NCBI GenBank assembly: GCA_002724245.1
Contig: PBOG01000145.1
Location: forward strand, 1-39,517
Direction of reading: 5' to 3'
Length of the DNA stretch: 39,517 nucleotides
Source of the DNA: Planctomycetaceae bacterium
GTDB taxonomy: Bacteria > Planctomycetota > Planctomycetia > Pirellulales > Pirellulaceae
Shown: piece by piece, positions 27,226 through 30,576 of the stretch
Position numbering within the stretch: the first letter of the stretch is position 1
How the letters are laid out: each line of letters begins with the position of its first letter
Position numbers and translations under genes: made by a program
The notes under the pieces: model-generated
Seen by the model: the letters and a program-made list of their open reading frames with translations, nothing else
The model's database searches: none
What the model was told of the DNA's origin: nothing

Positions 27226-27795
27226 GTGCACCACGATTCTCAACTCATCGATCAGACGTTGCAGGGCGACGATGGGGCCTTTGCGACACTTGTCGCCAGG
27301 TACCAGTCACGCTTGTTCAATACGCTGTTTCATGTGACGGGAAGTCGCGAGGATGCCGAAGATGTGGGGCAAGAAGCTCTGGTACAGGCGTATGTCAAGC
27401 TTTCTTCTTTCCAGCAGAAGAGCACGTTTTATACCTGGCTTTACCGTATTGCATTTAATTTGTGGGTAAGCCACCGTCGCAAGCGCAGGATTGAGAATGT
27501 ACTGACGCGGGCTCGGGAGGATCAAGGCAATCAAGCGTTAGATCCTGGTGAGAGTCCTGCCGAGCGGGTTTTGCGGGAAGAAAGGGCAGTGGCGGTTTAC
27601 ACGGCATTGGAGACGTTGCCGCCTGACTATCGATCGATTCTTGTATTGCGAGAAATGGAGGGTTGCCGTTACGAACGGATTGCGGAGATCCTTGAGTTGC
27701 CCATGGGGACAGTCCGCAGTCGCTTGCATCGCGCCCGGGTTCAATTGAGCGAGCAACTGAAAGAAATCCACCAGGCGAGTCCAGCCGAATCCTGA
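27226..27795 (+). CDS. ECF-type RNA polymerase sigma factor
   Basis: A 189-residue sigma factor of the ECF (group 4) type. Region 2 lies at about residues 20-90, with ARYQSRLFNTLF, DAEDVGQEALVQAY and the aromatic promoter-melting segment TFYTWLYRIAFNLWVSHRRK. Region 4 is at about 128-178, with LPPDYRSILVLREMEGCRY, IAEILELPMGTVRSRLHRAR as the DNA-binding helix-turn-helix. It redirects RNA polymerase to a specific promoter set in response to a signal. The GTG at 27226 is preceded by AGGGAG. The next gene encodes a one-span membrane protein that is likely its anti-sigma factor. A promoter recognised by this sigma upstream of itself is expected, but I cannot point to one. Confidence 0.93.
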   Translation: MHHDSQLIDQTLQGDDGAFATLVARYQSRLFNTLFHVTGSREDAEDVGQEALVQAYVKLSSFQQKSTFYTWLYRIAFNLWVSHRRKRRIENVLTRAREDQGNQALDPGESPAERVLREERAVAVYTALETLPPDYRSILVLREMEGCRYERIAEILELPMGTVRSRLHRARVQLSEQLKEIHQASPAES

Positions 27796-27882
27796 GACAG
27801 TATCGCCCCGGTAATTGCACTACCTGTGGGCAAAGCGTAGCAGTAAAGAAAGTACCGCAGACAGCAGATAGCCAGTACAGTC

Positions 27883-29019
27883 ATGAACGCGATCCTTGAA
27901 GAAATACTCAGTGACTATCTCGATGAACGATTGTCGCCGGAGGAATGCACGGAGCTCGAGCAGCGCTTGGCGCGCGAGCCAGAACTCCAGGCGGCTTACG
28001 ATTCGTTAAGAACGGTTCGAGATGCGTTACAGCGTTTGCCCCCGGTGTCTCCCGCGAGTGACTGGTCAGAGAGCGTACTAGGACGAGCCAAAGAGCTTGA
28101 GTCGGGCACTGCGGCAGGTGAGTCGGTTCAACTACCGCAGCACGCTTCGTCTGAATCATCTGGTCCGCGGCGTTTGGGACCCGCCAGCTATCTGCGGTTC
28201 TGGCCCGTCGTTGTCACCGCTGGCCTGTTGTTAATCGGTTTTTTCTGGCAGCGGAACAGCTTTGTAGGACAACAGTTGGCTGAAAAGGCGCCAGCGTCGG
28301 CTTCTTCCTCTGCCCCAGCGCTGCGATCGCCCGAAACGAGTGATTCGTCGGTGAGGGCACTCGACCTGGCCGATTCCATGGAATCAGTGAGCCTGGCAGA
28401 AGAAGCCGTATTGCAGGACGCTCCGGCAGCCCCACTTGCCTTCAGGCCTGCGCCTGTCGCGCAGCCAGCTGCAGGTATGGGGGATGCTGGCTCCAGTGCG
28501 GGCTTGCTCCAGCCTGAAATCCTGCAGGCGGAGACGGTGTCGGTTCGTGTTGATTTGCCGAAGAACTTGTTTCATGTCGTATTGGCAAACCATGATATCG
28601 CACCCCAGGTTGCGGATTCGTCAGCGGCGAATCAGTTGCGTGCCGGTCGCGCCTCAGCTTCCAGAGTTCCCCGCGAACCGGGTGAAGAGTCGGAACGCCA
28701 GGAGGGGTACGTTGTCGAAGCGACTTTGGGTCAGCTGAATGCGGCTCTACAGGAATTGGCGGCGCAGGGATCGGTTGAGGTGTTAGATGAATCAGTTATC
28801 CGCAAGAGAAAGGAATCTGCGGAGCAGTTAACGCAATCCAAGGCAGCGCGTCTCGAGACGCCGGCTGACGGCCAGCGTGCGCGCCGCGCGACGGAAGCAG
28901 AAAAGAGTCGCGTTCGTTCTACGAACAAGCCTTCCGCAAAAGTCAGACGCCCAGCTGGGAAAACGGCGCCGCGTTATCGGATTTTGTTTTTGCTCAATCC
29001 GCATTCGACGGGCAAATGA
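27883..29019 (+). CDS. Putative membrane anti-sigma factor
   Basis: A 378-residue protein. Residues 1-50 are helical and acidic (EILSDYLDERLSPEE), like the sigma-binding end of planctomycete anti-sigma factors, but the zinc motif H-x3-C-x2-C of classical ZAS domains is absent. A single transmembrane span lies at about 106-122 (FWPVVVTAGLLLIGFFW). The outer part has a low-complexity Ala/Ser/Pro linker, then a more ordered domain around VRVDLPKNLFHVVLANHDI and YVVEATLGQLNAALQELAAQ. It ends in a basic tail (KPSAKVRRPAGKTAPRYR). Position 87 bases after the ECF sigma gene supports the role: holding sigma at the membrane until an outside signal arrives. The signal is unknown. Confidence 0.72.
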   Translation: MNAILEEILSDYLDERLSPEECTELEQRLAREPELQAAYDSLRTVRDALQRLPPVSPASDWSESVLGRAKELESGTAAGESVQLPQHASSESSGPRRLGPASYLRFWPVVVTAGLLLIGFFWQRNSFVGQQLAEKAPASASSSAPALRSPETSDSSVRALDLADSMESVSLAEEAVLQDAPAAPLAFRPAPVAQPAAGMGDAGSSAGLLQPEILQAETVSVRVDLPKNLFHVVLANHDIAPQVADSSAANQLRAGRASASRVPREPGEESERQEGYVVEATLGQLNAALQELAAQGSVEVLDESVIRKRKESAEQLTQSKAARLETPADGQRARRATEAEKSRVRSTNKPSAKVRRPAGKTAPRYRILFLLNPHSTGK

Positions 29020-29096
29020 GAAAACCGTTACGTGTTGGTGCGCTTTGGCCTCTGGGGCGCCGCGGGGGGGTACCCGATGTCGTAAAGGAGCAACTG

Positions 29097-29315
29097 ATGT
29101 CGTCAAGTTATATTCGTGTACGCGATCATGGTCCTTTGGTGATCGAGGGAGACATTTCCATTCTCGACGCTGAAGGCAATCGGTTTCAGTGCGCTAACCG
29201 CAAGGACAAGGTTGCCCTCTGCCGTTGTGGCCAAACGCGGCAAAGGCCTTTTTGTGATGGCCGCCATCGTGAAATTGCGTTTTCTGCCGCAGAGCGCGCT
29301 CCGACCAGCAAATGA
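29097..29315 (+). CDS. CDGSH-type iron-sulfur protein
   Basis: A 72-residue protein with one CDGSH iron-sulfur motif: LCRCGQTRQRPFCDGRH supplies three Cys and one His, the ligand set of a 2Fe-2S cluster in mitoNEET-type proteins. The N-terminal half (RVRDHGPLVIEGDISILDAE) is the usual beta lead-in of bacterial CDGSH proteins. ATG 29097 has a strong AAAGGAG six bases upstream. An in-frame ATG at 29016 overlapping the previous stop (ATGA) is a less likely start. Role unknown; redox or cluster transfer is likely. Confidence 0.9.
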   Translation: MSSSYIRVRDHGPLVIEGDISILDAEGNRFQCANRKDKVALCRCGQTRQRPFCDGRHREIAFSAAERAPTSK

Positions 29316-29478: not shown

Positions 29479-30576
29479 ATGAGTGATCGGGAAACAGGTA
29501 GTCACTGGAGTTCGTTGGGAAGTGAATTGGGCGCTACGCCATCACCCGAATCCGCTCAGCAGGCAGCTCCTGCCAAGGTAGACGCGGAAGCTAGTGCCCC
29601 CAACGTGGCACCACCGCGTGCGTCCTCAACGCCTGCCACGACGCCGGAGGACCAGCCGGCGTTGGTGAGTAGTCAGTCAAGCGTAGATTCGGGATCCCCC
29701 AGTGATTGGTCTGCGTTGGCTTCCGAGCTGGGTGTTGTTCAGACGAAGCCGCCAGTAGCTCAGCCTGCACCAGCCCCTGCGCCGATCGCCGCCGAAGCGA
29801 CGACCAGTCGCAGCCCAGTGGAATCAGCGCCGGCCGCTCCCGCAGCAGCATCCTCCGCCGATAGCGATTGGTCTGCCTTGGCCTCCGATTTGGGTATTGA
29901 AGTAGAGACACCACCTGTGGAAGTTGCCTCCCAGTCTTCAGCGCCGGCGGTGCCAGTTTCCGATGCGAGTCCGGTGTCTACTCCAGTGGATGACGCCGAT
30001 GCTGAAAACACAAAGACGATCAAGGATGCCCCAGACGGTGCGACACAGGTAGCAAAGTCTGAAGGTGCTGGTGGCGATCGCCCTGCCAGACGTCGTCGGC
30101 GAGGAGGCAGAGGCGGGTCTCGTCGACGGGCGCCTAATCAGGACGGAGAACAGCAGCAGGACGGAGAACAGCAGCAGGACGGAGAACAGCAGCAGGACGG
30201 AGCTGCGGCGACCGATACAACGAGGGACGTTGCCCCAGCGAAGGATGGTGAGTCGAGTGGCGAGCCGCGCCGCCGCCGCCGCCGTCGGCGACGAACCCGT
30301 GGAGCAGATCAGGACCGCAACGCGGACGCAGGTGCCAGGGAATCATCTTCCCGCGATGCGTCAGCGGATGATCTTGATACGGATGGCGAGGAAAGTGGCG
30401 ACGGCCGCGAGACAAGTGAGACGCCTCAACAAAAACACCGCAAGATTCCCAGTTGGGAAGATGCGGTCGGTCTGGTTGTCAACGCAAACCTGGAAGCCCG
30501 TACGAAATCACCTGGTGGTGAAAAGAAAGGTGGCCGTGGGCGGGGTCGCGGTCGGTCTCGCAAATCGGGATCTTGA
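29479..30576 (+). CDS. Disordered Arg-rich protein with repeated W-S-(S/A)-L motif
   Basis: A 365-residue hydrophilic protein, mostly low-complexity and probably disordered. The N-terminal half carries three copies of a short motif: HWSSLGSELG (9-18), DWSALASELG (76-85) and DWSALASDLG (130-139), separated by Ala/Pro/Ser linkers. The second half has basic patches (RRRRRGGRGG at 204-213, a run of Arg at 264-272, and a final GRGRGRGRSRK), acidic stretches, and a QDGEQQ repeat. Near the end, IPSWEDAVGLVVNANLEAR (323-341) is the only ordered-looking block. RG-rich tails suggest RNA or nucleoid binding, and the repeated motif suggests docking to a partner; both are inference. ATG 29479 is chosen because upstream residues look non-coding. 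Confidence 0.78.
   Translation: MSDRETGSHWSSLGSELGATPSPESAQQAAPAKVDAEASAPNVAPPRASSTPATTPEDQPALVSSQSSVDSGSPSDWSALASELGVVQTKPPVAQPAPAPAPIAAEATTSRSPVESAPAAPAAASSADSDWSALASDLGIEVETPPVEVASQSSAPAVPVSDASPVSTPVDDADAENTKTIKDAPDGATQVAKSEGAGGDRPARRRRRGGRGGSRRRAPNQDGEQQQDGEQQQDGEQQQDGAAATDTTRDVAPAKDGESSGEPRRRRRRRRRTRGADQDRNADAGARESSSRDASADDLDTDGEESGDGRETSETPQQKHRKIPSWEDAVGLVVNANLEARTKSPGGEKKGGRGRGRGRSRKSGS
30139..30202 (+). repeat. In-frame 18-bp coding repeat
   Basis: CAGGACGGAGAACAGCAG occurs three times exactly (30139, 30157, 30175) and starts a fourth time. It encodes QDGEQQ in the Arg-rich protein, and being a multiple of three it keeps the frame. Confidence 0.95.

Follow-up and report, generated by a model that had tools for sequence, protein, structure and literature searches.

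The stretch of DNA analysed here, referred to below as the window, comprises 39,517 nucleotides of a contig from a Planctomycetaceae bacterium. On its + strand an open reading frame starts with an ATG at 29479 and closes with a stop codon that ends at 30576 (29479..30576), and its translation gives a protein of 365 amino acids, with homologs in relatives, that is predicted to be largely disordered and that we refer to as the hub protein. Directly upstream, at 27226-29315, lie genes for an ECF sigma factor, an anti-sigma-like protein and a CDGSH iron-sulfur protein, and the hub gene is followed by a reverse open reading frame of 152 amino acids, a PQQ propeller and ABC-2 genes. The same gene order is kept in a contig from a congener (L087). 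The hub gene has an ECF gene nearby in L067, L036 and L038-L041 as well.

Composition and motifs of the hub protein

The hydrophobic and aromatic residues W, F, Y, I, L, V, M and C together make up 10.7% of the window protein, which is acidic overall (net charge -11, pI 5.0) and carries its charge in blocks of -20 over residues 1-200, +7 over 200-290, -7 over 290-320 and +7 over 345-365. An AlphaFold2 model built from the window protein and 15 relatives contains three helices only, at residues 3-16, 77-83 and 326-343, and has a mean pLDDT of 51.5, a pTM of 0.22 and a pLDDT below 50 in 237 of the 365 residues. These helices coincide with the first two tryptophan-containing motifs (W motifs) and the C-terminal block (C block) described below, the C block being the best-scored part, and the model gives the picture of a disordered protein that would present short recognition helices.

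No family in Pfam or NCBIfam was matched by the window protein, and a search of solved structures found no match below an E value of 0.9. When 21 members of the family were compared with Pfam the single match was to REV, at E 0.0034 in one member, which we take as compositional; two of five proteins compared with NCBIfam matched RNase E or sigma factor models, the best at E 0.0015 and far below the cut-offs. A contig search with the full protein as query retrieved no relative, and no paper on the family was found among the titles and opening parts of abstracts searched.

The original prediction was of a disordered protein in which three copies of (H/D)WS(S/A)L(G/A)S(E/D)LG act as docking-like motifs, and exactly this pattern occurs at residues 9-18, 76-85 and 130-139. 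W motif 1 (HWSSLGSELG, 29503..29532, +) is a pattern match that falls within the predicted helix 3-16, and across the family the first W motif sits near the N-terminus, with a median offset of 9. W motif 2 (DWSALASELG, 29704..29733, +) is matched by the same pattern and coincides with helix 77-83. W motif 3 (DWSALASDLG, 29866..29895, +), also a pattern match, is an extra copy for which the AlphaFold2 model has no helix. Shuffling the window protein 20,000 times produced no occurrence of the exact pattern, while the relaxed form W..L...LG appeared at least once in 4 shuffles and twice in none. The W segments are amphipathic, with moments of 0.52-0.54 compared with 0.29-0.30 in shuffles, 3-7% of which were as high. 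The third motif resembles the second, with 8 of 39 nucleotides and 3 of 13 amino acids different, and a clear third copy is found in the window and its congener (L003/L087) only, that is, within the window's genus. Three matches to the regular expression were counted in three members, of which the third is presumably L084, and its third match is poor. Read from these sequences, the three copies in the window are two plus one, the triple being a local state and two being usual.

The basic patches, RG-rich tail and ordered C-terminal block that had been described in the sequence are likewise present, the block corresponding to the predicted helix 326-343. The C block (KHRKIPSWEDAVGLVVNANLEARTK, residues 319-343, 30433..30507, +) is the C-terminal IPSWEDAVGLVVNANLEAR block; it is matched by the family profile and has mean pLDDT values of 83 and 88. 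Of the four tryptophans in the window protein three belong to the W motifs and the remaining one to the IPSW of the C block. This block is not amphipathic (moment 0.19, compared with 0.21 in shuffles). Two Arg patches were read from the translation, the first (RRRRRGGRGGSRRR) at residues 204-217 (30088..30129, +) and the second (RRRRRRRRRTRG) at residues 264-275 (30268..30303, +); Arg 265-269 and 271 of the second are nearly invariant in a family alignment of 21 rows (A1). The RG-rich basic tail, GGRGRGRGRSRK, is encoded at 30529..30564 (+) in the same translation. The earlier description of this end of the protein needs adjusting, in that the C block would be an independent helix-forming motif and not a nucleic-acid-binding tail; the candidates for nucleic-acid binding would be the two poly-Arg patches and the RG segment that follows the block. 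Since disordered proteins with a high Arg content are common, a poly-Arg run by itself carries little information.

Tandem Repeats Finder identified a perfect 18 bp repeat of 3.6 copies at 30139..30202 (+), which encodes a QDGEQQ linker. The repeat is absent from the congener and represents a fast-changing linker.

Distribution and conservation of the family

Genomes within the class are referred to by family labels (f21 and f105-f109), and those of the window's own group as the order. Searching with the full-length protein matched 51 of 98 relatives, the window's own genome included, while a C-block profile of 30 positions and 21 rows (A3) matched 89 of the 98, again including the window's genome, and 76 of the 78 genomes of good quality. 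Three genomes had a second C-block match, each weak (E 0.056-0.092) and each in a frame no longer than 76 codons. Judged from these matches the family is near-universal in the window's order, with one clear copy per genome. In a draw of 246 genomes from the phylum the C block was matched in 26, made up of 4 from the window's order (strong), 11 from f21 (weak) and 11 from outside the class (weak). Seven of the 11 f21 matches were read and all are divergent members, with features such as SWESLAGDLFGID close to the N-terminus, poly-Arg, FGxGL motifs and, towards the end, IPTWEEAIS; in two of those read V stands in place of the motif tryptophan. Outside the class, the four matches that were read (L043-L046) are chance by eye and the other seven lie at E 0.05-0.1. 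Adding f21 to the profile (A6) and drawing 198 genomes from the class gave 94 matches, in 49 of 49 order genomes, 45 of 50 f21 genomes and 0 of 99 elsewhere, with family membership in this split taken from the RNase E/G search of the same draw.

A W-motif profile (A5) detected short members, in frames of 193-325 codons, in four of the six f106 genomes tested. These have an N-terminal DDWNDLARELGV or similar, poly-Arg or Arg-rich patches, an acidic stretch and a C-terminal WNVP[SA]W block with no long tail behind it. At E values up to 1 the same profile found no member in f105 (0/4), f107 (0/1), f108 (0/1) or f109 (0/4), nor in the five f21 genomes without the block, nor in two genomes of the order (G002 and G005); another genome (G046) has a W-motif protein in which no C block was seen. 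A loose C-block search of eight f105-f107 genomes gave weak matches only, the best at E 0.2. A PrkA-type gene lies near the hub gene both in the f106-labelled locus L206 (G487) and in the order loci L052 and L053 (72% and 71% identity), which fits common descent. For 17 family loci the named relatives are planctomycete assemblies, which include Planctomycetaceae, Pirellulales, Pirellulaceae and a Thermogutta. By sequence comparison, then, this is an unnamed family of the window's order and its relatives within the class, divergent in f21 and short in f106.

To determine which parts of the protein are kept, 91 members were read after most proteins shorter than 280 amino acids had been dropped; 76 of these are distinct, 65 from the order and 11 from f21. 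Using regular expressions that were written after the first members had been seen, W motifs of the form W..[LIVF]...[LIVFM][GDN] were counted at least twice in 59 of the 65 order members and at least once in 64 (the window has three), these members having been retrieved with either the C block or the full-length protein; hence those that came from the C block were not selected for W motifs. In f21 the same expression counts 0 of 11 because there the spacing is W..LA..LLG or the tryptophan is replaced. A C block of the [IV]P[ST]W type before a basic tail is present in 61 of the 65 order members and all 11 from f21, a run of five Arg or Lys in 55 and 10 respectively, and an FGxG motif in 17 and 10. 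Shuffled members gave two W motifs in 0.07% of cases, a C block in 0.3% and FGxG in 0.5%. The co-occurrence of the two motif types that had been proposed as a check in planctomycete genomes is seen in 55 of the 65 order members, and the misses for one motif do not overlap with those for the other.

The window protein was also compared with that of the congener L087. In the W motifs 30 of 39 residues are identical, with 19 codons changed, 10 of them synonymously; in the C block 25 of 28 residues are identical, with 16 codons changed, 13 synonymously; and in the rest of the protein 87 of 276 residues are identical, with 240 codons changed, 51 synonymously. Identity in the motifs and C block is far above that of the rest, and the motifs are therefore what selection keeps best. 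Loss of the motifs in orthologs that conserve the remainder would have spoken against the proposed docking role, and the opposite is seen, as the linkers diverge and the motifs are kept. The idea of repeated docking-like motifs in a disordered protein thus stands, with motifs that are predicted to form helices and are conserved across orthologs.

The W motif is largely confined to this gene. In ten whole genomes all 15 matches to the W profile at E below 0.06, spread over eight genomes, lie in the hub gene, and in the remaining two (G065 and G082) the best matches, at E 0.30 and 0.10, lie there as well, although the profile contains many of the hub copies that it matched. The possibility that this is a motif common to many proteins is not supported, given the 15 of 15 matches within the hub gene in these ten genomes. 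A further 24 genomes, chosen because they lack the C block or belong to a distant lineage, gave three W-profile matches at E 0.02-0.045 (G382, G341 and G473) in unrelated-looking frames, which are taken as chance, so the confinement is not absolute. Counted by residue, 124 W motifs occur in 35,052 amino acids of the family and 12 in 217,673 amino acids of neighbouring open reading frames, where they are 64 times rarer; for the C block the corresponding counts are 64 and 2. As significant W matches occur almost only in the hub gene, the copies would be several sites for one partner, or a self-association motif.

Neighbour clusters recur only within sub-groups among the 52 stretches inspected, and a conserved operon was rejected. 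In other groups the neighbours are ArgZ-like, sugar transport, dnaX/recR or PrkA genes, and RNases, helicases and ribosomal genes did not appear as recurrent neighbours in the 52 stretches. A dnaX-type gene follows the hub gene in L056, L064, L068, L079 and L083, with recR-type and, by eye, rpoN-like genes further on in three of these; Pfam checks covered dnaX in L056 and recR in L064. Gene context does not reveal the function of the hub.

RNase E/G, Rho and the F[GA]xG[LI] motif

The window's genome encodes its RNase E/G (L112, G000:C275) apart from the hub gene, as a short catalytic enzyme whose frame spans 543 amino acids; a table in part of a 2011 survey gives planctomycete RNase E/G sizes of 509-588 amino acids (PMC3071783). 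RNase E/G was found in all 24 genomes searched, contiguous in 16 of 16 from the order and f21 and interrupted by a long insert in all 8 from f105-f107. In the draw of 198 genomes it was found in 195, the others being G409, G412 and G448, and among the matches listed there was mostly one match per genome in the order and f21 and two in f105-f107. Exceptions among the matches listed include an order genome with two (G043), a contiguous enzyme in f108 (G343) and several f105-f106 genomes, G487 among them, with one or three; in f109, again among the matches listed, three of four genomes have RNase E/G in one piece with intermediate inserts. The inserts of f105-f107 (L104-L111 and L142-L152) are of about 280-960 amino acids, lie in the S1 region and have a high content of charged residues, in RG-containing and acidic segments and, in many inserts, in runs of Arg. 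The insert of the f108 enzyme (L137, G343) is short, but the protein has a long C-terminal tail rich in Ser and Arg, with RVRESLFEGIE as its last residues, and this tail is another place for a disordered extension.

No W or C motif was found in the RNase E inserts parsed. An F[GA]xG-type motif is present in 16 of 19 long f105-f107 inserts examined (absent in L143, L144 and L145), in none of the four RNase E proteins parsed from f108, f109 and G487 (L140 was unparsed) and in none of nine RNase E enzymes of the order and f21. The N-terminal extensions of the main Rho carry it in 6 of 10 cases in f105-f107 (L155, L157, L162, L164, L167 and L170), compared with 0 of 9 rows for Rho of the order and f21, 10 of 30 loci having given no row. 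Two or three Rho-type genes are present in 24 of the 28 genomes searched (G000:C153 and G000:C85 in the window's genome), and in most of these one Rho paralog is missing about 45 positions at the start of the model and falls short of the family cut-off.

Of 18 genomes searched with a profile of the motif (A7), 8 contained matches at E up to 0.5, 14 in total; nine of these fall in RNase E or the hub gene and include sequences from which the profile was built, and five fall elsewhere. In the other 10 genomes, the window's included, there was no match at this threshold. The matches elsewhere include a Rho paralog with a poly-Arg extension and a SpoVG that carries the motif at its extreme end, the assignment of both proteins having been checked with Pfam, and a helicase that by eye is of SNF2/SWIM type. 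Two matches (L134 and L136) look non-coding by eye and were set aside. The form with acidic flanks, F[GA]xG[LI], is also seen in this Rho paralog, SpoVG and helicase (L133, L135 and L132), as it is in the six Rho N-terminal extensions.

With its acidic flanks F[GA]xG[LI] is found in 23 of 76 family proteins (31 occurrences in 35,052 amino acids) and in 15 of 20 RNase E stretches (34 occurrences in 10,582 amino acids); two of these 20 stretches are not f105-f107 inserts, L118 being mis-parsed and L141 coming from G487. The 217,673 amino acids of neighbouring frames contain eight, five of them in L035 and L037, which are family members missed by the filter; with the neighbour count at three the motif is about 60-fold commoner in the family and more than 200-fold commoner in the RNase E stretches. 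Of the 25 neighbour frames that look disordered, two contained five matches, by their number those of L035 and L037, which would leave probably 0 of 23. Because few unrelated disordered proteins serve as controls here, F[GA]xG[LI] may yet prove to be a common property of acidic disordered regions in the class. It is absent from the window protein and from its genome's RNase E (L112) and main Rho (L174), and as A7 also found no match in the window's genome, the link to RNA rests on relatives. A link to RNA processing is suggested by the sharing of F[GA]xG[LI] between part of the family, the RNase E inserts and the Rho extensions.

A strict complementarity, in which a stand-alone hub would accompany only those RNase E enzymes with a short insert, was indicated at first by the block in 94 of 99 order and f21 genomes compared with 0 of 99 others, the RNase E of the first group being mostly contiguous and that of the second mostly split. 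It was rejected because short hubs occur in four of six f106 genomes tested, also with a long or intermediate insert, and even beforehand it had rested on few splits in the tree.

A candidate scaffold and its alternatives

Sequence comparison and the AlphaFold2 model of the window protein show conserved W motifs and a conserved C block set between free linkers, W motifs 1 and 2 and the C block being predicted as helices, with cationic segments formed by two poly-Arg patches and the RG tail. We tentatively favour the explanation, though we hold it with somewhat less than even confidence, that it is a stand-alone disordered hub in which helical docking motifs are combined with Arg patches that hold RNA, perhaps as part of the RNA-processing machinery. 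Each W motif would fold as a short amphipathic helix, with W, L/I and L on one face and Gly at its end, and these helices would sit on the same groove of one partner, two or three copies raising the avidity. The C block would dock a second partner, the Arg patches would hold RNA or another polyanion, and the acidic linkers would space the elements and balance the charges. More speculatively, the assembly served could be the one that processes RNA and is centred on RNase E/G and Rho; the hub might then do, as a separate protein, the job of the disordered region of proteobacterial RNase E. The scaffold envisaged in the original prediction is in this respect well founded in the anatomy of the protein, and partner recruitment and the binding of RNA or DNA by the tail are putative. 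A lineage-specific code of Planctomycetia, in which one shared partner, or the motif itself, recognises F[GA]xG[LI] with acidic flanks in the RNase E inserts, Rho extensions, the SpoVG tail and the hub family, is a rather unlikely proposal; here the hub would use its W helices, C helix and Arg patches to tie together a body for degradation and termination. It would act in trans as a long protein in the order and f21, where RNase E has only a short insert, whereas in f105-f107 the S1 region of RNase E would contain much of the scaffold, with a hub that is short (f106) or undetected.

The same anatomy can be read in other ways. A nucleoid protein that condenses the chromosome instead of serving RNA processing, with Arg patches and an RG tail that cover DNA or bridge it and with W and C helices that associate with each other, would suit the cationic patches between acidic linkers (+7 at 200-290 and +7 at 345-365, with -20 at 1-200) and the presence of one clear copy per genome in only part of the class. 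We consider it unlikely, as a whole protein with a net charge of -11 and a pI of 5.0 would be unusual for one that coats DNA, and F[GA]xG points to RNase E, Rho and SpoVG, although the SNF2/SWIM-type helicase (by eye) has it too. It is similarly doubtful that the protein forms a homotypic condensate, with W helices that bind each other or the C block, Arg and acidic segments that phase-separate with RNA, and no specific partner. Repeated aromatic stickers, alternating blocks of opposite charge and low predicted order all fit such a condensate, as does the finding in ten genomes of significant W matches in the hub gene only, which is expected if the motif is its own partner; the W, L, L and G are held at fixed places, however, which is tighter than stickers usually need, and generic stickers would drift.

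The neighbouring genes could also be taken to indicate a scaffold for replication or repair that serves the adjoining clamp loader and recombination proteins, given the dnaX-type gene behind the hub in five loci (L056, L064, L068, L079 and L083) and a recR-type gene further on in three, but these are 5 of 52 stretches, with sugar transport, ArgZ-like, PrkA or ECF sigma neighbours elsewhere, and we regard this role as very improbable. There is just as little reason to expect a membrane anchor in which the N-terminal W helix is an amphipathic targeting segment like the membrane-targeting sequence found in RNase E. The N-terminal segment contains Trp and is amphipathic (0.54 compared with 0.29 in shuffles, 3% of which are as high), but it is not cationic, and near-identical copies of it lie internally between disordered linkers.

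Returning to the favoured stand-alone hub, its closest parallel is the non-catalytic region of proteobacterial RNase E, which like the hub is disordered and biased in composition, with tandem repeats, Arg-rich segments and docking short motifs. Two papers describe the disorder, compositional bias, repeats and microdomains of this region (PMC4435900) and the binding of RNA by Arg-rich motifs of the RNase E disordered domain (PMC11964227). The hub shares with that scaffold a disordered region in which Arg-rich and helix-forming short motifs are combined, by prediction, but it is a separate protein without a nuclease domain, matches no curated RNase E model and is not a member of that family. In cyanobacteria the non-catalytic region of RNase E has, as described in parts of two papers, a conserved Arg run like that of the hub (PMC11964227, PMC10989914), and a passage in the first of these reports that the nonapeptide RRRRRRSSA binds PNPase in Anabaena (PMC11964227). 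The Arg runs of the hub family differ in having no fixed SSA end, in usually forming two patches and in being accompanied by the W and C motifs. A further comparison, by description only, is with RebA, a separate cyanobacterial protein that one part of its report presents as universal in its lineage and as binding and inhibiting RNase E (PMC10783494); the hub is likewise separate and lineage-wide, and its interaction with RNase E is a proposal.

An RG-rich disordered tail, presumed to bind RNA, is also a feature of the eukaryotic RGG/RG proteins such as FUS and nucleolin. The tail of the hub is alike in this, but the hub is bacterial, lacks a folded RNA-binding domain or Pfam match and has helix motifs.

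The 2011 survey, in a passage based on the size of RNase E, predicted no degradosome-like complex in planctomycetes (PMC3071783). If the explanation favoured here is true, the hub would be a concrete candidate scaffold for these bacteria, and a degradosome-type scaffold could be a free protein. Part of a study of Planctopirus limnophila lists 108 phylum-specific essential genes of unknown function (PMC10632474). Because such genes are numerous in the phylum, an unannotated protein that is near-universal and single-copy in its order would be a good target even without the link to RNA.
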